Numbered from the stretch's first letter, positions 2,080 to 23,936 are shown. The stretch: DNA of 32,985 bases from Saprospiraceae bacterium (GCA_020629845.1 JAHDCQ010000022.1:1-32985), one strand, 5' to 3'. Program-made: numbers and translations. The notes: generated by a model not told the origin, from the sequence alone.

Positions 2080-5070
2080 TTAATCTACCGTAACCACACC
2101 ACTTTCAGACATTACGCCTAAATGATTCCGATGTCGCACCGCTATATGATATGTACCAGATGGCAATCCAATGAATTGTAATTGTGTACTTCCTGTCGTT
2201 GCATCTACTACATCGCCATCGCGTTGTATAAGTGCAGCCATTTGTGCAGCTACTACATTTGCGGTGCTAGCGTTTCGTAATTCTATAAGCACCCAATCCA
2301 CGATAGCATTATTGCCTGTTAGTGCCATTACAGGCATCGCAGCCGTTACCCCTAATCCATAAGGGTCAGTGTTTGGTAGATTCAGCGCATTATTCATCAT
2401 GCCTGAAGTGCTGTTGAATGTACCGCCTAAGTAAGTCTTTACTTCGATATTGGTGCAAATATTCGTGCCTACACAGTCGCAATGTGTGCCATTGGCATTC
2501 ATAGCAGCAGTGTATTCATAAGTAGTACTGCCTATGCAAGCATCACTATCATTACAAGCTGTACCTATTGCTGGACATTGGTTGCAAGGAATCAAGCGTA
2601 CTTTCTCATTATCTTGATTCAGCAATTGCCACTGATGCACATTTGCACCTTCTGTATTGCTTACGGTTTGCTCTGAAAAATAGAGATTACTATTCTTATT
2701 TCGGATATTATAGTACCCACCGCCAGCATCTTCAAAATACCAACGATGATGATCTGCACTCATATTCAAATTCCAAACTCCGATATTGCCCCCATTTGCA
2801 CCTGAAGCACTTGCAACTTCTATACCCTTACTTCCACCTGCACCGATAGTATAACCGTCGCCGCTAGAGTGCGCTAGGATGGTAAACTGCTGTGCTTGGG
2901 TATTCTGAAAGCTGTTTTGTTGGATGTTACCATTATTGCCTGAACCGCCTGAATTGCTGACGTATTTACCGCTATGCTTGAATTGCATATAATAGCAGCC
3001 ATCTGCGATAGATGCACCGCTACAATCTTCTACTGCTACATCTATAGAAAGCGTATTTGTGCAGCCATAAGCATCTGTAGTGGTAACTGTATATGTACCA
3101 CTCATATTTACCGTTAGGTTAGAAAGCGTAGCATCGCCTGTAGCCGTAAAGCCGTTTGGCCCTGTCCACGATTGATTAAGGTTGTTAGGTAGTACGGATA
3201 GTCGAATCTCTTCACCTTCACAAAGTGTTGCTGGCGAACAGTCTCCACTTACCCAGCCACTACCTGCATTATATTCGCAAATTGGATTGACACTATGAAC
3301 TATCAATTCAATTGCTTTGGTGTAGGAACAGCCATTTCCATCTGTTGCAGTGACAGAATATGTCCCTGCCATACTTGGCGTAATATTATCGAGTCTTGCC
3401 CAGCCTGTATCTGTGAAACCGTTCGGGCCTGTCCAAGTTTTTGTTAGGCTGTTAGGATCAACCGAGAGGGTTACATTGCCTGTACCTTCGCAAACATCAA
3501 GGCTACAATCTCCTGTAATCCAAGTGCCATAATTTACCCGATAGGAACATTCTACTACCTCATCACAACAAGCATCGCAGACACCGCCGCAGTCTACGCC
3601 TGTTTCATCTTGGTTTTGAATATTGTCGTTACAAGTACCACAAGAAAATGGACAGATACCGCCGCAATCTACACCCGTTTCATCCTGATTTTTGATGCCA
3701 TCATGGCAAGATGCACAAGGAAAATCACAGCTTGCTGCTGCGTATTTGCTACGCATCAGATTGCCTGGTTGTGTGCCGAAACCTAGCGTCATATCTATGC
3801 CTATTCCGCTGGCTAAATAGCAATAGCTCATCATCGTACCTGCTGAAGGCGTTGGTGTAGTAGCAGGACAACCGCCTGGTACGCCGTCCCAAGCTTCTGT
3901 AGGGACACAGGCATCAATCGCAGTATTATTACCATTCCAGAAACAGGAATGAGTATGCGCCGAGCCAAAGTTATGTCCCATTTCATGAGCAACTAAGAAA
4001 ACAGAAAGCGAAAAAGTAGGATAGCCAGCATACGAACTATTAATGCCAGCAGTTCCATATCCACCACTTTCTGGAAGACGGTCACATAAGGCATCCACCC
4101 AAGCAAGTCCTCCGCCACCATCGTAATGGACATAGTGCGAAATACTACCTGTCCATGCATTAGCATTTCTGTAATCTCTGTATTTTTCTAATGAATTTAT
4201 AAGGTCTGGGTCGCCAGAAAGTCGTCGGAATGGCTCATCAGATGTCCATGCAACCAAGCCAGAAATTTTTACGGGAATACTTTCATTGGCGTAGAGTGTA
4301 GTAACATGCGTGAACAATCCAAAAACATAAGCCGCTGCTTGTGTCGTGCCGCCTTTATCATTTACGAGGTCTTTATCTACATCAAAATGCACGCCGATAC
4401 ACTCTGTTGCTGCCTTTGATATATCTGCTTCTTCTTTTACTTGTTGCGGCATTGGCAAATCGTCCATACCGCATTTAAAAGTGCTGAAAAGCTCTTCTAA
4501 TTGAGTATCATCGTATAAAATATATTCTGGTCTATCATTAATTTTTCCGAAGGTGATATTTCGTCCACCAGCCAAAAGTAACAAGCCCATGACTTCATGC
4601 TCGAAAAAGCTCATGGTGGCACTTGAGCGTTTTTCTCCTACTACCACGCCTTGATAATGTACGCCTGTTTTAGGATTTTCGATAATTTTGCCGCTTGGCA
4701 TTTCTTTCAATGTGAAATCAGGGGTAAAAAGATTGACCTGTACTAATTCTAAATCATAAAAAGTGCCGTCTGACTTTGGAAGTCGCAATTTTATGGTTGC
4801 TGGACGATTGACTAAAATTTCTTCTTGAATAGCCGAGTTGAGCGAGAGAACACTATACGTTTTTATGGACGTAGGAATATTGTTTGAAATTTCATTAACT
4901 ACTTTGGTGTTTGCTGTTTTTACGAAATCATTATAGTCCATAAAGACTGTTCCATCGGTTTTTTTCGCTTGTATTAGCTGTTCTAGGACAGTTTCTTGTG
5001 CGAATGAGGTATTAGTTACTAGTAGTAGTCCACACAGAAAGTGTATGGCATGCCTAATTGTTACGTTCAT
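2080..5070 (-). CDS. Secreted M12B-type (reprolysin-like) zinc metalloprotease with Cys-rich, Ig-like, ricin-type and C-terminal modules
   Basis: 996 residues. A signal peptide ends near residue 24 (TSFAQ). A propeptide of ~190 residues ends in FKCGMDDLP, where C200 could act as a cysteine switch. The catalytic domain (~220-450) holds the zinc motif HEMGHNFGSAH (H362, E363, H366, H372) and a downstream Met-turn (MMSY, 413-416). Next come two copies of a cysteine repeat containing NQDETGVDCGG (~452-500), two Ig/PKD-like repeats (~505-590 and ~598-682), a ricin-B-like domain (~690-830) and an unnamed C-terminal module (~875-996, IVDWVLIELR...RHRNHLGVM) that recurs in two other proteins of this window. 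It should be an extracellular endopeptidase targeted by its lectin-like tail. No TIGR04183-type sorting domain is present. The tail is a near copy of the downstream neighbour's. Confidence 0.93.
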   Translation of the reverse strand: MNVTIRHAIHFLCGLLLVTNTSFAQETVLEQLIQAKKTDGTVFMDYNDFVKTANTKVVNEISNNIPTSIKTYSVLSLNSAIQEEILVNRPATIKLRLPKSDGTFYDLELVQVNLFTPDFTLKEMPSGKIIENPKTGVHYQGVVVGEKRSSATMSFFEHEVMGLLLLAGGRNITFGKINDRPEYILYDDTQLEELFSTFKCGMDDLPMPQQVKEEADISKAATECIGVHFDVDKDLVNDKGGTTQAAAYVFGLFTHVTTLYANESIPVKISGLVAWTSDEPFRRLSGDPDLINSLEKYRDYRNANAWTGSISHYVHYDGGGGLAWVDALCDRLPESGGYGTAGINSSYAGYPTFSLSVFLVAHEMGHNFGSAHTHSCFWNGNNTAIDACVPTEAWDGVPGGCPATTPTPSAGTMMSYCYLASGIGIDMTLGFGTQPGNLMRSKYAAASCDFPCASCHDGIKNQDETGVDCGGICPFSCGTCNDNIQNQDETGVDCGGVCDACCDEVVECSYRVNYGTWITGDCSLDVCEGTGNVTLSVDPNSLTKTWTGPNGFTDTGWARLDNITPSMAGTYSVTATDGNGCSYTKAIELIVHSVNPICEYNAGSGWVSGDCSPATLCEGEEIRLSVLPNNLNQSWTGPNGFTATGDATLSNLTVNMSGTYTVTTTDAYGCTNTLSIDVAVEDCSGASIADGCYYMQFKHSGKYVSNSGGSGNNGNIQQNSFQNTQAQQFTILAHSSGDGYTIGAGGSKGIEVASASGANGGNIGVWNLNMSADHHRWYFEDAGGGYYNIRNKNSNLYFSEQTVSNTEGANVHQWQLLNQDNEKVRLIPCNQCPAIGTACNDSDACIGSTTYEYTAAMNANGTHCDCVGTNICTNIEVKTYLGGTFNSTSGMMNNALNLPNTDPYGLGVTAAMPVMALTGNNAIVDWVLIELRNASTANVVAAQMAALIQRDGDVVDATTGSTQLQFIGLPSGTYHIAVRHRNHLGVMSESGVVTVD
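2083..2448 (-). other. Unnamed C-terminal module, copy 1 (in metalloprotease)
   Basis: Residues ~875-996 follow the pattern V-K-x-x-L-x-G ... M-x-x-x-L ... P-Y ... IVDWVLIELR ... AALIQRDGDVVD ... YHIAVRHRNHLGVM. It aligns by eye with 25544-25942 and 29668-30015. I know this pattern from other Saprospiria/Bacteroidota secreted proteins but cannot name a family for it. Confidence 0.75.
2749..3560 (-). repeat. Diverged direct repeat of 1-820 (Ig-Ig-ricin module)
   Basis: This is the second copy of the duplicated module, coding for residues ~505-774 of the metalloprotease. The repeat fades upstream, where one gene has the beta-helix and the other the cysteine repeats and protease, so the shared unit is the carbohydrate-binding tail. 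Confidence 0.85.
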
Positions 5071-13610: not shown

Positions 13611-13716
13611 TAAGAACCGTACTAATTTTGTAAGTATTAGGTACAACAACTCTGATAAAACACCAGCATATCGTACTTAAACCTTACTTTAAAATACTAA
13701 ATAAATTGCTAATTCC

Positions 13717-14373
13717 TTACATCTTTTTCAGACGTGCTTTTATATCATCTACTACCTTTTGCTGCTTTCCAATTTCCTCTTCTTTAGCAGATTGAGCGGA
13801 TTCGTTTTCAGAAATATCTTTCTTTGCTTCTGCTATCTTTTCTTCACATTTCTGAATTTCGTTTTCATAGCCTTTCTTGTCTTTCTTCAAGTCTTCTTGA
13901 TCTTTTTCCAGCTTTTTTAGCTTGTCCTCTTCTTCGGCTAGAAGTTCTTCAATAGCAGCCGTAGATACTTGCCCCGCGAATTCAATGAGCATAGCATTCG
14001 CTTTGCCATACGCTTGAGCATGCTCACTTGATGATACATACGCACCACCTAAGTTGTACCATACCACTAGTTCTGTATCAGCACCTTGCTCCACTACTTG
14101 AGCGTATACATCTACTGTATTGTCGCTCATCTCTTTAATTTCCGCATTATCCGTAAAGGTGATATTAGTCTTCTTATTAAGCTTCGTTTTGCCTTTGTAG
14201 TCACCAATATATTTATTCCAAGCTTTCTCTACTTCCTTCTTATTGGTCTTTTTTAGCATGATAGATACCGCATTATTTTTGCCTTTAGGCATGGTGCGTA
14301 ATCCTTCATTTACTTGTGCGAAAGTTGTACCACATACCAATACGAATACTAATAATAATAGCTGTTTCATCAT
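13717..14373 (-). CDS. Secreted protein with C-terminal coiled coil, unknown function
   Basis: 218 residues. Start is either of two adjacent ATGs (14373 or 14370); the second gives MKQLLLLVFVLVCGTTFAQ, a clean signal peptide. Residues ~25-140 form a small mixed domain with NNAVSIMLKKTNKKEVEKAWNKY-like and VVWYNLGGAYVSS segments that I recognise as a recurring unnamed Bacteroidota domain. Residues ~142-217 are a highly charged coiled coil (EELLAEEEDKLKKLEKDQED, then repeated K/E heptads). It may bind envelope components or oligomerise in the periplasm; no enzymatic motif is visible. It has its own terminator and a 295-bp divergent upstream region. Confidence 0.85.
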   Translation of the reverse strand: MMKQLLLLVFVLVCGTTFAQVNEGLRTMPKGKNNAVSIMLKKTNKKEVEKAWNKYIGDYKGKTKLNKKTNITFTDNAEIKEMSDNTVDVYAQVVEQGADTELVVWYNLGGAYVSSSEHAQAYGKANAMLIEFAGQVSTAAIEELLAEEEDKLKKLEKDQEDLKKDKKGYENEIQKCEEKIAEAKKDISENESAQSAKEEEIGKQQKVVDDIKARLKKM

Positions 14374-14611
14374 TTTTGATTGAATAAATTAATCATTATA
14401 GTAGGCTTCATTTCTAAATTAAAAAGCTTACCAAAAAATAAATAACTTGTGACATATTAGACGGACAGCTAAAAAAAGGTAACAGGTTATGAATAAATGA
14501 AAATCATAACAATTCGTTAAAATTTGGCACAAGAAACGAATTTAAGGTCACAAAAAATAAAATTAAAGTGATTTAATGACTTTTAACATAAAAAATCTAG
14601 ACAGGTGTAGG

Positions 14612-14643
14612 TTTGAAGCCCTCCTAGAAATCTATTATCTTAG
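14612..14643 (+). promoter_or_regulatory. Promoter candidate for the SGNH hydrolase operon
   Basis: TTTG at 14612-14615 and TATCTTAG at 14636-14643, spaced by 20 nt, fit the Bacteroidota -33/-7 pattern with one mismatch in the -7 box. It lies 25 bp upstream of the start codon. Confidence 0.4.
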
Positions 14644-14668
14644 TTGAAAATGAAAAATCGGACGATAA

Positions 14669-15364
14669 ATGAATTATCTACAAGTATTCATCAGTACACT
14701 TTTATTGAGCATGTTGGGGCACTCTTATACTCAAGCACAAGACTGGGCAAATCTCCAGCGTTTCCAAGCAGAAAATGCTAAACTTGGCATACCAACCAAA
14801 GGCGAAAAGCGCGTGGTTTTTATGGGCAATTCCATCACCGAAGGCTGGGGAAATGACAAGACGAGCTTCTTTCATACGAAAGGCTATATCAATAGAGGCA
14901 TTAGTGGACAAACCACACCACAGATGCTTGTGCGCTTCCGACAAGATGTGGTAGCTTTGCAGCCTGAAGTAGTGGTAATACTCGCAGGCATCAACGATAT
15001 TGCGGGCAACACTGGTCCATCTACAATTCCACAAATAGCGGATAATATCAAGGGAATGGCGGAAATTGCGCGTGCCAATGGTATCAAAGTAGTTATTAGT
15101 TCCGTTTTGCCTGCATACGATTTTCCGTGGCGACCTGGCTTAGAACCCGCCCCGAAAGTAATTGCCCTCAATAGAATGCTGAAAGCCTATTGCAAGAAAA
15201 ATAAAATCGTCTATCTCGATTATTTTAGTGCAATGGTGGATGAGCGCGATGGCATGAAAAAGGAGTATACCTATGATGAAGTACATTGTACCCAAGCGGG
15301 TTATGATGTGATGAAACCTTTGGCAGAAAAAGCAATTGCAAAAGCGATGAAACGAAAGAAATAA
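14669..15364 (+). CDS. Exported SGNH/GDSL-family hydrolase
   Basis: 231 residues with a signal peptide to about residue 24 (SYTQAQ). The four SGNH blocks are present: VFMGNSITEGWG with nucleophile S55, RGISGQTT with G80, LAGINDIAG with N109, and DEVHCTQAGY with D203 and H206. It most resembles the SGNH group that includes sialate or xylan acetylesterases and PAF-acetylhydrolase-like enzymes, so it may remove acyl groups from sugars or lipids in the periplasm. Its TAA overlaps the ATG of the next gene (TAATG), showing translational coupling. Confidence 0.92.
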   Translation: MNYLQVFISTLLLSMLGHSYTQAQDWANLQRFQAENAKLGIPTKGEKRVVFMGNSITEGWGNDKTSFFHTKGYINRGISGQTTPQMLVRFRQDVVALQPEVVVILAGINDIAGNTGPSTIPQIADNIKGMAEIARANGIKVVISSVLPAYDFPWRPGLEPAPKVIALNRMLKAYCKKNKIVYLDYFSAMVDERDGMKKEYTYDEVHCTQAGYDVMKPLAEKAIAKAMKRKK

Positions 15365-16482
15365 TGCAACTCAAGGACTTTAAACTGGAACGCTATTTTG
15401 GCATCCATGAATTTACGGCAAAATACCTGCTTTCCAGCTCGGACTGTGATGGCTATACGATGCAAGATGTGCTAAACACCGCCACAGTAGATGAGCTAGA
15501 ACGTTGGAATAAACTCCAATTGGGCTATACCGAAAGTGAAGGCAACCCGCTATTGCGCCAAGCTATTCGCCCATTTTATAAAAATGCGGACTTGGATAAT
15601 ATTCTAGTTGCGTCACCAGGAGAGTTGAATTTTGTGTTGATGAATACCCTGCTGACTGCTAATGACCATGTGATAGCCATCGCCCCAAGCTATCAATCGC
15701 TGCATGAAGTAGCACGAAGTATCGGCTGTGCTATGAGTTATTGGCTACCTGATGAGCAGACATGGGAATATGAACCCGAACAACTGGAATGCCTAATTCA
15801 GGAAAACACGAAACTGATTATTATTAACTTTCCGCATAATCCAACGGGAGCCTATCTTAGCGAAGCAGTACTTTTACGAATTGTGGAAATCGCTCGAACA
15901 CATGGCATTTATATCTTTTCGGATGAAATGTATCATAAACTTACCGTTGGGGAACTACCTACTTTGCCCCCCATTCAAGATGTGTACGAAAAAGGCATCA
16001 GTCTGTGGGGAACATCCAAAACCTTTGGTTTGGCTGGCTTACGCACAGGCTGGTTGGTGACACAAGACAAGACCGTACTTCGCAAAATATTAGCATTCAA
16101 AGATTACCTCAGTATCTGCAATAGCGCGCCTAGCGAAATTCTAAGTATCATCGCGCTAAATCATATTGAGCAGTTTTTAGACCCGAATCTTGAAAAGATA
16201 AAACGCAATATTCAGTACTTTCAGGAGTTCGCAGATGCGCATACGGATTATGTGCGTTTTATTCCGCCTAAAGCAGGTTCTACTGCTTTTGTGGAACTAC
16301 ATATTCCAGAAACGAGTTTAGTATTTAGTGATAAAATGGTAGCTGAAACAGGCATTATGACCGTTCCTGCCGAGATGTTTGGTTTTGATGGAACATACAT
16401 TCGAGTGGGGTTTGGACGTGCCATTTTACCTGAAATCCTAGAACGCTTCAGCGACTATTTGAAAACAAATTACACAGCATGA
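15364..16482 (+). CDS. PLP-dependent class I/II aminotransferase
   Basis: 372 residues, fold type I. Key residues: Y109/P108 region in APSYQSLHE, NFPHNPTG with N159, SDEMY with D187, the Schiff-base lysine K219 in GTSKTFGLAGLRTGW, and the substrate-carboxylate arginine R347 in YIRVGFGR. It transfers amino groups between an amino acid and a 2-oxo acid or acts as a lyase; the substrate is not readable. The absence of a signal peptide puts it in the cytoplasm. It shares one base with the upstream stop and is 24 bp from the next gene, forming a probable three-gene operon. Confidence 0.92.
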   Translation: MQLKDFKLERYFGIHEFTAKYLLSSSDCDGYTMQDVLNTATVDELERWNKLQLGYTESEGNPLLRQAIRPFYKNADLDNILVASPGELNFVLMNTLLTANDHVIAIAPSYQSLHEVARSIGCAMSYWLPDEQTWEYEPEQLECLIQENTKLIIINFPHNPTGAYLSEAVLLRIVEIARTHGIYIFSDEMYHKLTVGELPTLPPIQDVYEKGISLWGTSKTFGLAGLRTGWLVTQDKTVLRKILAFKDYLSICNSAPSEILSIIALNHIEQFLDPNLEKIKRNIQYFQEFADAHTDYVRFIPPKAGSTAFVELHIPETSLVFSDKMVAETGIMTVPAEMFGFDGTYIRVGFGRAILPEILERFSDYLKTNYTA

Positions 16483-16506
16483 GTTCAATAATACATTTAC
16501 TTAGCA

Positions 16507-17235
16507 ATGAGTGATATTATCAACAAAGAAAACAAGGCGATTTGGAATACCAATGCCAACTTTTGGGATGCTAAAATGGGAACAGCAGGTAATGATTGGC
16601 ACCAAGAACTCATCGCACCCAAAACAGAACGTTTGCTGGACTTAAAAGCTCCTGCGCGCTTGCTAGATGTAGGCTGTGGCAATGGCGTATTTGCTAGAAG
16701 AATGGCAGCGAAAGGCATCGCTGTAACGGCTTTCGATTTCGCGGAACAAAATATCGAAAATGCGAAAAAATATCCTTCCGAGGGTATTGAATATCTAGTG
16801 CTAGATGCTACGAATGAAGCGGCTTTGCGTTCACTCGGCAGCGAAAGTTTTGAGGCAGCAGTCGCCAATATGGTGCTGATGGATGTACCTGAAATAGAAC
16901 CACTTTTCAAGGCTTTACAGCATTTACTCGTACCGAATGGCTGCTTTGTATTTTCGGTTTGCCATCCTTGCTTTCATTCGGAGCAAGTAGAACATACACA
17001 GGGCGGCATTTTGGTTCGCACCTATCATCAGCCACAAACTTCCAAAGGCGTAGCCATTAATAAACAGCCAGAATTGCAGTACTATTTTCATCGCTCGGTA
17101 ACGGATTATCTACGCCTTGCATTTCAGTATGGCTTTGTAGTAGATGGCTACGAAGAGCCTGTGTTCGAGGAAGCCCATGGCGGCATTTTTACTAAGGTTC
17201 CTCCTGCCTTGATTGTGCGGGTGCGGAAGCTATAA
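16507..17235 (+). CDS. Class I SAM-dependent methyltransferase
   Basis: 242 residues. SAM-binding motif I is LLDVGCGNGVFARRMA (52-67), followed by an acidic post-I position (AFDFAE, 75-80), motif II-like VLDATNEAAL and AVANMVLMDVPEI, then LVPNGCFVFSVCHPCF, which is typical of the Methyltransf_11/25 small-molecule enzymes. Substrate unknown; the operon with an aminotransferase and a lipase-like enzyme suggests small-molecule metabolism but no named pathway. Confidence 0.9.
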   Translation: MSDIINKENKAIWNTNANFWDAKMGTAGNDWHQELIAPKTERLLDLKAPARLLDVGCGNGVFARRMAAKGIAVTAFDFAEQNIENAKKYPSEGIEYLVLDATNEAALRSLGSESFEAAVANMVLMDVPEIEPLFKALQHLLVPNGCFVFSVCHPCFHSEQVEHTQGGILVRTYHQPQTSKGVAINKQPELQYYFHRSVTDYLRLAFQYGFVVDGYEEPVFEEAHGGIFTKVPPALIVRVRKL

Positions 17236-17377: not shown

Positions 17378-17498
17378 TAACTCGCGCTTATCAAATCTAA
17401 ATCAGGGGATTTTTTACAAAGGGAATTATTTTTTCATCATGGATGTCACACTTTGTATTTTTCAGACTTATATATGCAAATCTAACTCAAGTTTCAAA
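17378..17498. other. AT-rich intergenic stretch, nothing recognised
   Basis: The left part of the 429-bp gap before the exporter genes. No ORF, hairpin or promoter that I can support. Confidence 0.4.
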
Positions 17499-17655
17499 GT
17501 AATTATTTAGAGCAGAGAAGAGAGACCATTCGCTTCGTTCATTGAGAGAAGAGATAGTATACCAAAGAATAATAGAGAATGAATAAAAAAATACTTGTCC
17601 CTCTCTGTTCTCTCAGTCCAAAGGACGGTCTCTGCTCTCTCCTCTAAATAGTTAC
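17499..17655. mobile_element. MITE-like inverted-repeat element, family C copy 2
   Basis: Core ends GTAATTATTTAG and CTAAATAGTTAC, with arms extending through GAGCAGAGAAGAGAGACC. The interior shares CATTGAGAGAAGAGATA and CTCAGTCCAAAGGACGGTC with copy 1. It is flanked by an 8-bp direct repeat, GTTTCAAA (17491-17498) and GCTTCAAA (17656-17663), one mismatch. It lies directly next to the likely promoter of the exporter gene. Confidence 0.85.
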
Positions 17656-17806: not shown

Positions 17807-20023
17807 TTGAGGAATAAAAAATTTCCATTTTACCGACAACATGATGAATATGACTGTGGCCCTACTTGCCTTAGGATGTTGGCAAAGTACTATGGAAAAA
17901 ACCATAATATTGAGCGACTAAGACATCTGTGTTCGATAACCATGGAAGGCGTATCGGCTAGAGGAATTATTGAGGGGGCGGAATCTATAGGGTTTCAAGC
18001 ATTGCCCGCTTTGATAGATTTCAATAGCCTAAAAAACGAAGCACCGCTTCCTTGCATTAGTTATTGGCGCGATAGGCATTTTCTAATCGTTTATGAAGTC
18101 AGTAAAAAATGGGTGTATGTAGCCGACCCCGCGCATGGATTAATAAAATATTCTCACGAAGATTATATTAAAGCATGGCAAAATAGGAAAGACAAAGAAG
18201 CCGATCATAAAGGGGTGGTTATTTTACTAGAACCAACACCTGATTTTTATAAAGAAGAAGGAGATGCGAAGCCTAAAAGTGGCTTGTCCTTAATTAGGTC
18301 GTACATTAGTAAGGATAGTCGCTATGTGTTTCAGATATTTTTAGGGTTGCTTGGTGGAACCATTATTCAGTTAGCTTTTCCATTTCTTACCCAAGCCGTA
18401 GTAGATCAGGGCATTGTGACGGGCGACTTAAATTTTATTTATATTCTCTTGATTGCCCAAATCACTTTGTTTCTTAGCAGTTCAGTGTTTTCACTTATTC
18501 AGGGTTGGTTGTTGTTGTTTGTCGGTTCGCGGGCTAGTATTCTTATTGCAACGGACTATTTGCGAAAGCTATTGAGCAAGTCGCTTTCCTTTTTTGACGC
18601 GAAAACCTCTGGAGATATTCTTCAACGTATCAATGATTCCAATCGAATAGAACAGCTCATTGCCTCTGCGCCTGGAACCATTTTTTCCTACCTCAATGCT
18701 GTCGTATTCTTAGCTATTTTACTGTATTATGATCTTACTATTTTCACGGTTTTTGTAGTCGGAATAGTGCTATATGTGTTGTGGGTACAATACTTCATGA
18801 AAAAAAGAGAGGAATTAGACTATAAACGCTTTGAAGAAAATGCTGGCACGAATACATCTTTGATGCAAATGGTAAATGGCATCCAAGAAGTAAAAGTAAA
18901 TGGCTCAGAGTTGCGCCGAATTTGGGCATGGGAAGAGATTAGAATACGCCTTTACAAAACCGCCATTTCTAATCTAAAATTAGCACAAATTCAAACCGTA
19001 GGCGGCAATGTTATCAATGAATTCAAGAATATAACGATTACTTTTTTAGCGGCAAAAGGGGTGATAGATGGGCAGCTTACCTTAGGGATGATGCTGGCTA
19101 TTCAATATATAGTAGGGCAGATAAATGTGCCTCTCAATACGCTGGTTCAATTTCTAAAAGAGCTACAAGATGCAAGATTAAGTGTAGAGCGATTCACGGA
19201 TATTGATTTTAAGACGGAGGAAGAAAAACTGATGAACAAAAAGAACCTCACCCGCGCCAAAAACGAGCCGCAAGACATCCGAATAGAAAATTTATCGTTC
19301 CGATATGGTGGGCATCGAAGCCCTATGGTATTGAAAAATATAAACCTCACCATTCCGCAAGGCAAAGTGACCGCCATAGTAGGAATGAGTGGTGGAGGTA
19401 AGACTACGCTTTTGAAACTTCTACTAAAGCTGTACTTACCTACTGAAGGTACTATTTACGTCGGCAATGTCAATTTGAACCTCATTGATACCCACTCTTG
19501 GCGACAAGGTTGCGGCAATGTCATGCAGAGTGGATATATCTTTTCGGACACCGTTGCTCGAAATATTACAGAATCCAATTCTTTTGGTGATTATGATGAA
19601 GAACGTATTTTAGAGTCGGTGAAATTGGCTAATATTTATGATTTTATCGAAAGCCACCCTTCTGGCTACAATGCCCGAATAGGGCCGCCTGGGGCTAGTG
19701 GTCGAAGTTTGAGCGGCGGGCAAGTGCAACGCATCTTATTAGCCAGAGCAATTTATAAAAACCCAAAATATATCTTTTTGGATGAAGCTACCTCTGCGCT
19801 TGATGCGAATAATGAGCGGGAAATTATGGAAAAACTAGAAGCATTTTACGAAGATAAAACGGTAATAATTGTCGCTCATAGATTGAGTACCGTACGAGAT
19901 GCAGATCAAATTGTGGTGCTAAAAGATGGGGAAGTAGTAGAAGTAGGAAAGCACGAAGACCTGATTCAAAAGAAAGGGCAGTATTTCACATTAGTCAAAA
20001 ATCAACTAGAGATAAGCAAGTAA
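17807..20023 (+). CDS. Peptidase C39 domain-containing ABC exporter (bacteriocin/leader-peptide type)
   Basis: 738 residues in the classical three-part order. Residues 1-140 are a C39 peptidase with all catalytic residues: Q11, C17 in YDCGPTC, H91 in RHFLIVYEV, D107 in VADPAHG. Residues ~165-450 hold about six transmembrane segments, and ~490-738 the ATPase: Walker A GMSGGGKTT (526-534), signature LSGGQ (635-639), Walker B IFLDEATSALD, H-loop H691. It would cut double-glycine-type leaders and export the peptide. The start is TTG; an in-frame TGA lies 22 bp upstream and the first ATG is beyond C17, so TTG is required for an intact peptidase. Its stop overlaps the adaptor's ATG. A candidate substrate gene lies at 21454-21603. 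Confidence 0.96.
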   Translation: MRNKKFPFYRQHDEYDCGPTCLRMLAKYYGKNHNIERLRHLCSITMEGVSARGIIEGAESIGFQALPALIDFNSLKNEAPLPCISYWRDRHFLIVYEVSKKWVYVADPAHGLIKYSHEDYIKAWQNRKDKEADHKGVVILLEPTPDFYKEEGDAKPKSGLSLIRSYISKDSRYVFQIFLGLLGGTIIQLAFPFLTQAVVDQGIVTGDLNFIYILLIAQITLFLSSSVFSLIQGWLLLFVGSRASILIATDYLRKLLSKSLSFFDAKTSGDILQRINDSNRIEQLIASAPGTIFSYLNAVVFLAILLYYDLTIFTVFVVGIVLYVLWVQYFMKKREELDYKRFEENAGTNTSLMQMVNGIQEVKVNGSELRRIWAWEEIRIRLYKTAISNLKLAQIQTVGGNVINEFKNITITFLAAKGVIDGQLTLGMMLAIQYIVGQINVPLNTLVQFLKELQDARLSVERFTDIDFKTEEEKLMNKKNLTRAKNEPQDIRIENLSFRYGGHRSPMVLKNINLTIPQGKVTAIVGMSGGGKTTLLKLLLKLYLPTEGTIYVGNVNLNLIDTHSWRQGCGNVMQSGYIFSDTVARNITESNSFGDYDEERILESVKLANIYDFIESHPSGYNARIGPPGASGRSLSGGQVQRILLARAIYKNPKYIFLDEATSALDANNEREIMEKLEAFYEDKTVIIVAHRLSTVRDADQIVVLKDGEVVEVGKHEDLIQKKGQYFTLVKNQLEISK

Positions 20024-21330
20024 TGGAAAAATCGAAAGTCTATGACATACAAAAGCGGAGTGATTTCGTCAATGATGTATTAGAAAGAACACCCAACTGG
20101 ATTATCACTTGGGGAAATACCTATTTTTTACTATTCCTTTTACTTTTAGTAGCTTTAGCTGCTTTCATCAAATATCCTGATATCATCAATGCTCGAACTA
20201 TTATCACCTTAGCCAATCCGCCAATTAGTGTAGTAACCGAAAAATCGGGAGAATTGGAGCGCATTTACTACTCGGACAAAGAGTTGGTAGCAAAGGAAGC
20301 ACCCGTGCTAAAAATATTTTCACTCGCCCAACTAGAAGACGTATCACTAGTACGTGAAAAATTAGTCGCTTTCAATGAAGTATCCTCTATACATGAATAT
20401 TTATCTTTCTATCTTCCAACGGATTTAGAATTAGGTAGTTTGGCTTCTACTTACAGTACGCTCCAAAAAGATTATCAAAACTTTATGTATTTCCTTACGA
20501 ATACCAATACCTCTAAAAAAGTAGCTTCGCTAGAACGAGAAATAGAAAAAATTAGAGCCTTAAATCATTCCTTGACAAGGCAAGAAGTGATCTTTAGAGA
20601 GGAATTTAACCTTGCTAAGAAAAATTACGATAGAAGTGTCCTATTAAATCAGAGAGGAGCAATAAGTGATTTGGAGCGCGAACGAGAAGAAAGTGCCTAC
20701 CTTACCCAAAAGCGTCAATTAGAAAATTTCAATGTGCAGAAAATTAATAATGAATTGCTTATAGAAGAAAAACAAGCTCATATCAATGACTTATTAGGTG
20801 GCAAAAACGAAGATTTAGACAGTCAGGCCAATGCCTTGAAAGAGCAAAGTGCACAGCTACTAGAGCAAATAAAATACTGGGAAAAGCAACACCTCATCAA
20901 AGCACCTATAGCTGGTAGGATATCGCTGGATGAGCGAATAGTAGAACAATACTATGTGAATAAGAAAGAAGTCGTTTTTGATATTATCCCCGAGGGCGAA
21001 AACAAAATAATTGGACGCGCAGAAATGCCCATTATTAATTCTGGAGAAATTCAGACAGGCGATAAAGTGCAAATTCGCCTAGATGCCTACCCTTATCAGG
21101 AATATGGTTTTATCGAAAGTAAAATTCAATCTATTTCCTTACTACCAAAACAAATCGAAAACGCCACTTTTATTACGGCTGAATTGGAACTCCCAGATAC
21201 CCTAAAGACGGTTTACGGCAGAGCTATCCCACTTATTCCCAACATGACTGCCACTGCTTTGATTGTAAAGGAAGATAAGACACTGTTAGCAAGAATATTT
21301 GATCGGATTAGCTTAGTTTTTCAGGGTTAG
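20023..21330 (+). CDS. HlyD-family periplasmic adaptor (membrane fusion protein) of the C39 exporter
   Basis: 435 residues. A cytoplasmic N-terminus (1-30) and one transmembrane helix (~32-50) are followed by the first half of a lipoyl-like domain (~60-97), a long alpha-helical hairpin or coiled coil (~165-285), the second lipoyl half (LIKAPIAGRISLDERIV, ~291-307), and a beta-barrel with GDKVQIRLDAYPYQEYG (~346-362). It bridges the ABC exporter to an outer-membrane TolC-type channel, which is not encoded in the window. Its ATG shares one base with the exporter stop, so the pair is translationally coupled. Confidence 0.95.
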   Translation: MEKSKVYDIQKRSDFVNDVLERTPNWIITWGNTYFLLFLLLLVALAAFIKYPDIINARTIITLANPPISVVTEKSGELERIYYSDKELVAKEAPVLKIFSLAQLEDVSLVREKLVAFNEVSSIHEYLSFYLPTDLELGSLASTYSTLQKDYQNFMYFLTNTNTSKKVASLEREIEKIRALNHSLTRQEVIFREEFNLAKKNYDRSVLLNQRGAISDLEREREESAYLTQKRQLENFNVQKINNELLIEEKQAHINDLLGGKNEDLDSQANALKEQSAQLLEQIKYWEKQHLIKAPIAGRISLDERIVEQYYVNKKEVVFDIIPEGENKIIGRAEMPIINSGEIQTGDKVQIRLDAYPYQEYGFIESKIQSISLLPKQIENATFITAELELPDTLKTVYGRAIPLIPNMTATALIVKEDKTLLARIFDRISLVFQG

Positions 21331-21420
21331 ACTCTTTAACAATTTTTTCTGATTACTTAATGGTCTGTTTCTAATTCGACTGAATTATTCACCAAAATTT
21401 TTAGAAGATTTTTCAATGCA

Positions 21421-21441
21421 GCTTCTCAAAGAACGAGAAGC
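21421..21441. other. Small hairpin between convergent adaptor and peptide genes
   Basis: GCTTCTC pairs with GAGAAGC around AAAGAAC. It is 90 bp past the adaptor stop and 13 bp past the peptide stop, so it could terminate the peptide transcript, though no clear T-run follows. Confidence 0.35.
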
Positions 21442-21453
21442 CATACGCAATAT

Positions 21454-21603
21454 TTACGTTCCAATTCCTAATGCTGACCCAGCCGAGGCTACTCCATTGC
21501 CAAGCAAACTATCTGTCAGTTGCTCTAATTGTGCTTGTTCCTGCTTAGACGTTTTATTCTTGAAATCTTCTAAGCTTGCTTTTTGCAATTTTTGCTTTTT
21601 CAT
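21454..21603 (-). CDS. 49-residue leader-like peptide, candidate substrate of the C39 exporter
   Basis: ATG at 21603, TAA at 21454. The N-terminal half is lysine/glutamine-rich and hydrophilic, starting MKKQKLQKASLEDFK; this KKxxLxKxSLEDFK look is typical of leader regions of C39-exported peptides in Bacteroidota. The C-terminal end is LLGNGVASAGSALGIGT, small and glycine/alanine/serine-rich, without cysteines. There is no canonical GG; GNG (35-37, with L34 at -4 and L26 at -12) or AG (41-42) are possible cut sites. The gene is convergent with the exporter operon, 123 bp past the adaptor stop, with a 239-bp AT-rich upstream region. No modification enzyme is adjacent. That it is a precursor is inference from leader style and position. 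Confidence 0.62.
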   Translation of the reverse strand: MKKQKLQKASLEDFKNKTSKQEQAQLEQLTDSLLGNGVASAGSALGIGT

Positions 21604-21753
21604 GTTCAATGAATTTTTTTTGTTAAAAATGATTTATTTAAAATGGTTTTGAAGCTATAATTTTTAGCTACTTTGATGGCATATATCTATATAAGTGCAG
21701 AAAATGCAAAGTGTGACATTTTTTTAATGTATATTTTTTGGTAGTGGTCAAAA

Positions 21754-21815
21754 GCGAGTGATAAAAACTCAGCACTTCAAGGGAGCATGCTCCCTTGGAC
21801 GAAAGTATCACTCGT
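21754..21815. repeat. Short inverted-repeat element E with internal palindrome
   Basis: Outer arms GCGAGTGATA and TATCACTCGT (9 of 10 paired) enclose a perfect 20-bp palindrome, CAAGGGAGCATGCTCCCTTG, at 21778-21797. The layout matches element D. It lies 28 bp before the acylase ATG and would be in its 5' leader or promoter. Confidence 0.7.
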
Positions 21816-21842
21816 TATCTTACACCAGATATTTTTTTAAAA

Positions 21843-23936
21843 ATGAATAAATTAGTACTTGCCTTCATCTTTGTAGCTTTCGCAACTTCCATTGTTGCCC
21901 AAACGCAACTTGAAAGCATCACCATCTACCGCGACCAATGGGGCGTGCCACACATTTACGCACCTACCGATGAGGAAGTCTGCTATGGACTAGCTTGGGC
22001 GCAATGCGAAGACGATTTCAAGACGGTTCAAGAGCAAATGCTCGCCGTGCAAGGACGCTATGGCGAACTAGCAGGCAAAGACGGCATAGTAGCTGATTTT
22101 GCCATCAAGTTTATGGGTTTCCGCGAGCTAGTGGAAGCACGTTATGAAAAGGATCTAAGCCCCAAAGTGCAGCGCATGTTGGAAGCTTATTCTGATGGCG
22201 TGAATAATTATGCTGCTGCACATCCTAAAGAACGTTTGCTAAAAGGTAAATTTCATACTACTGCTAAGGACTTAGTAGTGGGCTACATGCTTGGCGTAAC
22301 TCAACTCACGGGCGCGACCAAAGACCTGCTCGCCATACTAGACGGCACTATTGAAATGCCAAAAGAAGACATGCAACGCGGCTCGAATGCCATTGCAATA
22401 AGCGGCAATAAAACGACTACAGGTGAAACCTTTCTAGCCGTCAATTCACATCAACCAATGGAAGGCTGGTACTCTTGGTATGAAGCTCACTTGGGTAGCG
22501 ATGAAGGCTGGAATATGCTCGGCGGTACTTTCCCTGGAGGCATGACTATTTTTCATGGCGCGAATGAGCACTTGGGTTGGGCGCATACCGTCAATCATCC
22601 TGATTTATCGGATGTCTATCGTTTAGAGATGCACCCAAATGGGGAATTGCAGTATAAATTCGATGGAGAATGGCTGCCCTTGAAGGAGAAAAAATATAAA
22701 GCAAAACTAAAGCTGGCAGGTCTAAAAATCCCAATTAGTCGCACGATATATGAAAGCAAATACGGACCAAGCTTCAAGACGAAAGATGGTCGTTTTTACG
22801 CTTGGCGATTTGTTTCGGGACTCGAAATAGGCGCACCTGAGCAATGGTATCGCATGAATAAGGCGACGAATTTGGAAGAGTTTCAAGCGGCTTTATCTAT
22901 GCGTGGCTTGGTGTGTACCAATATTGCGTATGCAGATAGGGTAAATAATATTTACTACATCAGCAATGGCAAGATTCCGCAGCGCGCTTCTATATTTAAT
23001 TGGCAAGAAGTACTACAAGGCAATACTTCTGCCACGCTTTGGGAGGAGGATGAATTTGTGGATATAGCGCAATTACCACAAGTACTTAATCCCAAGGCGG
23101 GTTATGTATTCAATACGAATAACAGCCCTTTCAACTCCACAGCAAGCTCGGAAAACCCTGAAGAGACTGCCTTAAATAAAAGCATGCACTATCAAGGCGT
23201 AGGCGTGGAAAATAATCGCAGTACTCGATTTATGGAATTGATAGCACAGTATGATACATTGAGTTGGGACGATTTCAAACGTATCAAATTTGACCGCACT
23301 TATCCAAGCACGCTACAGACGGTGGATATGCAAAACTTAGAATTATTATTGCAATTAAAAGCCGAGCAATATCCCGATATTGCAGATGCGATACAACTGC
23401 TTAATACTTGGAATAGAGAGACGGAATTGGAGAATAAAACTGCCCTTTTATTTTTCACGACTATTGATTTTTTAACAAAAAAATTACGTGACGAAAAACG
23501 CCTAGAACGCGGTAATAACATTACAGAAACGGATGCCGTAGCCGCTATTCAAAAAGCAAAAAAGCAACTACTCAAAGATTTTGGTCGTCTTACTATTCCA
23601 CTAAAGGAAGCACAGCGACATATACGTGGTAAAGTGGATATTCCGCTTGTTGGCGGCCCTGATGTCCTAGCAGCTATCTACTCCAAGCGACAAAAAGATA
23701 GTCGGCGCAAAGCCTTTGCAGGCGATTGCTACATACAATTGGTACGCTTTGGCGAAGCAGGCGTACATATCGAATCGGTGAATGTATATGGCGCATCTGC
23801 CAAGCCTGATAGTCCGCATTTTACGGATCAGATGGAGCTATTTGCCCAACAACAATTAAAGCCTATGACGCTGGATTGGGCGCAAGTACGAAAGGAGGCG
23901 GTGAAGACGTATCATCCTTTGCGGGTGTTGGAGTGA
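21843..23936 (+). CDS. Exported penicillin-acylase-family Ntn hydrolase
   Basis: 697 residues from the ATG at 21843, which gives the signal peptide MNKLVLAFIFVAFATSIVAQ; a start 48 bp further upstream would lie in inverted-repeat element E and spoil it. The precursor should self-cleave before S181 in QRGSNAIAISG, giving an alpha part (~21-180) and a beta part starting at the Ser nucleophile. Other family features are RDQWGVPHIYAPT, the AWAQCEDDF segment, and AHTVNHPDLSD with N251 as likely oxyanion residue. Relatives hydrolyse amide bonds of penicillins, acyl-homoserine lactones or cyclic lipopeptides; the substrate is not readable. It follows the peptide/exporter locus, but a functional link is unproven. 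Confidence 0.94.
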   Translation: MNKLVLAFIFVAFATSIVAQTQLESITIYRDQWGVPHIYAPTDEEVCYGLAWAQCEDDFKTVQEQMLAVQGRYGELAGKDGIVADFAIKFMGFRELVEARYEKDLSPKVQRMLEAYSDGVNNYAAAHPKERLLKGKFHTTAKDLVVGYMLGVTQLTGATKDLLAILDGTIEMPKEDMQRGSNAIAISGNKTTTGETFLAVNSHQPMEGWYSWYEAHLGSDEGWNMLGGTFPGGMTIFHGANEHLGWAHTVNHPDLSDVYRLEMHPNGELQYKFDGEWLPLKEKKYKAKLKLAGLKIPISRTIYESKYGPSFKTKDGRFYAWRFVSGLEIGAPEQWYRMNKATNLEEFQAALSMRGLVCTNIAYADRVNNIYYISNGKIPQRASIFNWQEVLQGNTSATLWEEDEFVDIAQLPQVLNPKAGYVFNTNNSPFNSTASSENPEETALNKSMHYQGVGVENNRSTRFMELIAQYDTLSWDDFKRIKFDRTYPSTLQTVDMQNLELLLQLKAEQYPDIADAIQLLNTWNRETELENKTALLFFTTIDFLTKKLRDEKRLERGNNITETDAVAAIQKAKKQLLKDFGRLTIPLKEAQRHIRGKVDIPLVGGPDVLAAIYSKRQKDSRRKAFAGDCYIQLVRFGEAGVHIESVNVYGASAKPDSPHFTDQMELFAQQQLKPMTLDWAQVRKEAVKTYHPLRVLE

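Follow-up and report, generated by a model that had tools for sequence, protein, structure and literature searches.

Bacteroidota genomes often encode C39 peptidase-containing ABC exporters (PCATs) for which no substrate can be recognised. The closest described systems to the locus reported here are the PCAT-exported double-glycine peptides, which include ComC/ComA, LahA/LahT, CtA/PCAT1 and the colicin V type with HlyD. A review (PMC10885120) describes C39 peptidases as cutting after GG, GA or GS, with hydrophobic residues at positions -4, -7 and -12. Also close are the GG-motif precursors of ribosomally synthesized and post-translationally modified peptides (RiPPs) found with PCATs in Bacteroidota, among them the grasp-with-spasm loci (PMC10352776, PMC8939145) and the bacteroidetocins. 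The window, meaning the whole 32,985-nt stretch of Saprospiraceae bacterium DNA that was analysed (GCA_020629845.1 JAHDCQ010000022.1:1-32985), encodes a PCAT, a HlyD-type adaptor and, on the opposite strand, a 49-residue peptide. It resembles the double-glycine systems in the intact catalytic residues of the exporter, an adjacent short gene and a helical leader with Gly at -2 and a hydrophobic residue at -4, and shares with the Gram-negative members an HlyD adaptor. It differs in that position -1 of the peptides of this genome is Asn or Thr rather than Gly, Ala or Ser, positions -7 and -12 of the window peptide are not hydrophobic, and the precursor gene is convergent with the exporter with further precursors on another contig. 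With the Bacteroidota RiPPs it has in common the phylum, the PCAT and HlyD pair, several precursors per genome and, in the locus of one related genome (G226), a SPASM/ATP-grasp pair; unlike them, its precursors match no curated precursor family, and its relatives have Cys-His-Asp cores, a carnosine N-methyltransferase-type (CARME) methyltransferase and an HQxxH protein, all three of which are missing from the window genome. We consider it probable that the locus is a variant C39-exported peptide system which has lost its modifying chemistry, with the window peptide and a tandem array on contig C338 as substrates under a shared type of promoter.

The exporter matched Peptidase_C39, ABC_membrane and ABC_tran above the Pfam cut-offs. 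Residues Q11, C17, H91 and D107 of the C39 domain are all intact, and the domain could be aligned to that of PCAT1 with the catalytic Cys included. The HlyD start at 20023 overlaps the exporter stop, and the two genes are translationally coupled. The adaptor shares 42% and 37% identity with those of two related genomes, G033 and G163, respectively. These results confirm the intact C39 peptidase and coupled HlyD described in a first-pass annotation of the window.

The 49-residue open reading frame (ORF) starts with ATG, is convergent with the exporter and HlyD genes and lies 124 bases past the HlyD stop. It contains no GG, as had been annotated. A paralogue in the same genome is 40% identical (E=7e-5), and a precursor profile of 11 rows gave four matches in this genome; thus, the frame is more than a chance ORF. 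The four related leader peptides are encoded by the window gene and three tandem genes on contig C338 (5.4 kb), the latter with leaders homologous to that of the window peptide (E from 7e-5) and conforming to the pattern MKKLNLEAFQAKLxxxEQxKxDALCxQLLG, followed by 16-20 variable residues rich in S, G, K, R and N. Differences among the triplet leaders are mainly synonymous, with a synonymous proportion (pS) of 0.22-0.40 against a nonsynonymous proportion (pN) of 0.03-0.10, and the leaders are under purifying selection. The leader of the window peptide diverges most among the four, carrying Thr at -7 and five additional residues at its N terminus. The predicted products are GVASAGSALGIGT for the window and NNGSVTKTRSKGADST, NSPNSNGSKAKSRSKGSDSV and GGSSQTKARSSGAHSI for the triplet. 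No second C39 exporter was found in the window genome (approximately 91% complete), and therefore all four peptides are likely to leave through the window exporter. A gene pair on C338 is divergent from the triplet and encodes an extracytoplasmic function (ECF) sigma factor (L005:584-1105, minus strand), a second one besides that on contig C94 described below, and a small, possibly anti-sigma-like protein (L005:358-591, minus strand).

The comparison set comprised 398 genomes of the taxonomic family of the window genome. A close clade of the exporter was present in six of them (C39 domain, E<=1e-52; 58-75% identity), with a tree support of 1.0 for the window, G033 and G163 exporters and 0.996 when those of G272 and G226 join. 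Strong matches to the precursor profile (E<=1e-11) were obtained in exactly these six genomes. The remaining matches were weak (E>=5e-4) and represent canonical-GG relatives in G217 and G548, such as MKKLSFNDLSAMAENVATTALLEQISGGTENDCHDK. The chance that two independent six-genome sets coincide is approximately 2e-13, the precursor profile having been built partly from the related loci. A profile made from the four peptides of the window genome alone already placed G226, G153, G272 and G163 at the top among short frames, which constitutes the independent part of the co-occurrence. The precursors of the five other clade genomes lie 0.2-3.9 kb from the exporter. Three to six precursor genes precede the exporter on the same strand in G163, G272 and G226/G153, and the G033 precursor is convergent with the exporter as in the window. 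The G033 order (exporter > HlyD > methyltransferase > < CARME < methyltransferase < peptide) is that of the window once the three methyltransferase genes are removed. The proposed check for homologues beside related C39 exporters found them; the small gene is real and very likely encodes a leader-peptide substrate of the adjacent exporter, as had been suggested. The description of the peptide as an orphan is not correct, given three paralogues in its own genome and homologues in five others. The proposal of a new class is overstated, since the remaining members of the family to which the window peptide belongs, as a divergent member, resemble ordinary RiPP precursors.

The window peptide alone, used as a query against 60 relatives, returned only chance matches inside long frames; one weak match (G047:C104) was discarded because a 939-aa gene on the other strand encloses it. 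Among named organisms, the exporters most similar to that of the window come from Bacteroidota. No homologous peptide was found alongside exporters (44-50% identity) of named Bacteroidota or of relatives. The curated Pfam and NCBIfam families gave no significant match for the window peptide or its relatives. The literature, in incomplete coverage, yielded no description of these precursors and no report of RiPP loci with carnosine-type methyltransferases. C39-exported leader peptides are known; the precursor family itself is uncharacterised. The G217 and G548 peptides (MKKLSF..LLEQISGGTENDCHDD) have the same register as the family (LL at -8/-7, I or V at -4, G at -2) and the same Cys-His-Asp core start, but differ in a canonical GG, another N-terminal half of the leader and weak profile scores. 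Three G217 contigs (C84, C133 and C76; L144) carry several canonical-GG precursors that end in ENDCHD or CDCHD and lack a match among curated families; they represent a related family of Cys-His-Asp peptides within the same taxonomic family.

The cleavage register was set by hand from L-8, L-4 and G-2; in MAFFT alignment A2 the G272 and G226 peptides have the site in the wrong place. All 16 tabulated precursors have Leu or a like residue at -8, Leu or Val at -4 and Gly at -2, and the window peptide has Leu, Leu and Gly at these positions and a further Leu at -11. Position -1 is Asn in the window peptide, Asn, Thr and Asn in the triplet, Arg in G163, Asp in G272 and G226, and Gly only in G033. 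Since the register of the 16 precursors puts Gly at -2, the GNG of the window peptide, annotated earlier as a possible site, reads best as the usual cleavage position with an unusual -1 residue. The case makes the strictness of C39 peptidases at -1 testable. The C39 substitutions A51, I55 and Y86 of the exporter clade are not claimed as the cause of a relaxed -1, because PCAT1 appears to have the same Ala and Ile.

The exporter and the peptide gene are each preceded by an exact copy of a promoter-like motif, TGTCAC-N17-CTTATA, and the first 18 bases of the two copies differ at one position. They are the only exact copies in the window, where 0.13 would be expected at up to one mismatch. A third copy lies 38 nt before the C338 triplet. 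The window genome contains 18 exact copies against approximately 1.2 expected from base composition and, at up to one mismatch, 43 against 13 for a reversed-pattern control. The further exact copies are on contigs C6, C29, C94, C101, C156, C162, C216, C219, C277, C390, C482, C500 (two), C545 and C573. Nearly all exact copies precede a gene on the same strand, many of these genes encoding secreted proteins; the set includes genes for lipoproteins, a subtilase, an M43 protease, a GDSL lipase, a TLC-domain protein and an ECF sigma factor, and outlines an apparent ECF sigma regulon. Constraint extends to positions that the motif leaves undefined (T at 9 and 18), and this speaks for a true promoter. 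The ECF sigma gene (C94, L154:890-1438, minus strand; TIGR02937 above cut-off) has its own copy and is followed by a membrane-protein gene that could encode an anti-sigma factor. The simplest reading is that this factor recognises the motif and would be autoregulated. Scans around the peptide gene found no sigma-70 consensus promoter or intrinsic-terminator pattern, and the stem-loop 3' of the peptide stop codon (Table 1) was not scored as an intrinsic terminator. The copy on contig C390 precedes no ORF (L164:1501-1660); the approximately 95 nt after it close with a strong hairpin and a U run (fold z = -2.9) and are a small-RNA candidate for this regulon. An inverted repeat with perfect 10-nt arms (AGAGCAGAGA/TCTCTGCTCT) lies within 17509-17638 in the long 5' region of the exporter and could be a leader structure or a small mobile repeat.

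Table 1. Features of the exporter and peptide locus, in window coordinates.
Feature	Position	Strand	Basis or remark
Aminotransferase	15364-16482		upstream of exporter
S-adenosylmethionine (SAM) methyltransferase	16507-17235		upstream of exporter
Promoter-like TGTCAC-N17-CTTATA	17444..17472	+	exact; 334 nt before exporter TTG
C39 peptidase-containing ABC exporter (PCAT), 738 aa, TTG start	17807..20023	+	Pfam domains, residues, PCAT1 alignment
HlyD-type periplasmic adaptor	20023..21330	+	TIGR01843 E=1e-20, below curated cut-off
Stem-loop just 3' of peptide stop codon, possible terminator without strong U run	21421..21442	-	RNA fold z = -3.1
Precursor peptide MKKQKLQKASLEDFKNKTSKQEQAQLEQLTDSLLGN / GVASAGSALGIGT, predicted 36-aa leader and 13-aa product	21454..21603	-	homologues; register L-8, L-4, G-2
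Promoter-like TGTCAC-N17-CTTATA	21690..21718	-	exact; 87 nt before peptide ATG

The homology, the exporter/precursor co-occurrence, the shared motif and the lack of close matches to the enzymes of the relatives are computed results; cleavage, export, dependence on the sigma factor and biological role are inferred from here on. The exporter and adaptor would form a peptidase-containing ABC (type I) secretion system with at least four leader-bearing substrates, the 49-aa gene encoding one and the C338 array the other three. The leader, K-x-L-x-x-x-S/N-L-E-x-F followed by a helix ending in L-L-G-N, would dock on the C39 domain, which would cut at the double-glycine position with Gly-Asn or Gly-Thr replacing Gly-Gly. 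Products of 13 residues (window) and 16-20 residues (triplet) would pass through the exporter and HlyD to an outer-membrane channel. Promoters of one type would drive exporter, peptide and array, probably through an autoregulated ECF sigma factor that would also serve the secreted hydrolases and lipoproteins. The window genome appears to have lost both the Cys-His-Asp cores and the modifying enzymes of the relatives, and probably secretes unmodified peptides that are most likely signals or interference peptides. Such short unmodified products, in our judgement, fit these roles better than that of membrane-active bacteriocins. The related leaders, the shared motif and the relatives that lie beside the same exporter with modifying enzymes suggest that the locus is a stripped-down branch of an uncharacterised system.

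In the precursors of the relatives, which belong to other genera, Cys-His-Asp occurs at or soon after the core start; it is absent from all four cores of the window genome. A CARME enzyme is encoded at each of the four loci examined (G033, G163, G272 and G226); the three copies tested matched PF07942 above cut-off, with a weak ovothiol-type match as well, and the G226 and G272 copies share 51% identity. We infer that the histidine of the core is the methylation target in these relatives. The HQxxH protein (HQCSH) of G163, G272 and G226 has a region weakly like the alpha-ketoglutarate (aKG)-HExxH peptide beta-hydroxylases (E=0.004, below cut-off), which serves as a lead only. G226 additionally encodes a grasp-with-spasm ATP-grasp/SPASM pair (TIGR04192/TIGR04193; L122:12527-15137), the ATP-grasp member scoring slightly below the curated cut-off. 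Because the pair sits among five of six LxLxDFKxK precursors (13650-16803), precursors of a single family may be substrates for two different chemistries in this genome. Enzyme and precursor genes thus occur together in G033, G163, G272 and G226, and not in the window.

It is unlikely that the peptides are still modified as RiPPs before export, by enzymes encoded elsewhere or by the methyltransferase and aminotransferase upstream of the exporter, even though the relatives adjoin CARME-type methyltransferases, the HQxxH protein and, in G226, the grasp-with-spasm pair. Searches of the window genome found no close CARME homologue (best partial match, E=0.0099) and no HQxxH homologue, and the cores lack Cys-His-Asp. 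Between the upstream genes and the exporter lie 0.57 kb with the exporter's own promoter-like motif, and both genes were rejected as peptide-modifying enzymes for lack of real similarity to the cluster enzymes. The annotated absence of a modifying enzyme nearby overlooks these two upstream genes but holds in substance, since the methyltransferase is only weakly and generically similar to those of related clusters. It is less likely still that a RiPP cluster was lost here, leaving the window peptide as a degenerate remnant and the exporter to serve mainly the C338 peptides. The G033 order minus its enzyme genes and the divergence of the window leader fit this explanation, but the frame is open, the conserved leader positions are retained and the promoter-like motif is intact and nearly identical to that of the exporter. 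AT-rich intergenic DNA commonly holds short ORFs and no curated family library matches the peptide, but a chance frame antisense to a plus-strand ORF (21416-21652) is very improbable in view of paralogues at E=7e-5 and better that share invariant leader positions, the promoter-like motif and the homologues beside orthologous exporters.

Several findings weigh against the proposed variant export system. The window peptide has Asn at -1, Thr at -7 and Gln at -12, and because of these three positions it strictly falls outside the definition of a double-glycine peptide, although it would work like one. The related loci contributed to the precursor profile, so the figure for exporter/precursor co-occurrence depends in part on the search for exporters. 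The TGTCAC-N17-CTTATA motif was not found in the related loci, and control by it is therefore either lineage-specific or changed in sequence. The window product is neutral and hydrophobic and the triplet products are basic and hydrophilic, so that one single role for them is not obvious. Lastly, as the genome is approximately 91% complete and in 594 contigs, its unsequenced part could hold another exporter or the missing enzymes.

A broader reading, to which we give somewhat less than even credence, is that the family defines an undescribed system with an L-x-L-x-x-F-K leader, a G-x site, Cys-His-Asp cores acted on by a histidine methyltransferase of the carnosine/ovothiol type and the HQxxH enzyme, and a dedicated C39 clade, and that the window branch dropped the chemistry, scattered its precursors and brought both the exporter and the peptides under one ECF-type promoter as a dispersed secreted-peptide regulon. 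More novel than the window peptide is the precursor family itself, in which Cys-His-Asp cores go with a carnosine-type methyltransferase, and the comparison suggests an undescribed family of such peptides. Leader homology within an exporter clade combined with a shared promoter motif offers an approach for pairing exporters with dispersed precursors. The case would also connect an exporter of peptides with a secretome under ECF control.

No Rfam family overlaps the window. After the peptide locus, a gene for a penicillin-amidase/PvdQ-like acylase (21795-23936, plus strand) could encode acyl-homoserine lactone acylase activity; a link to the peptide is unsupported. The minus strand at 2080-5070 encodes a 996-aa, probably secreted protein with reprolysin-like metallopeptidase and ricin-type lectin domains.

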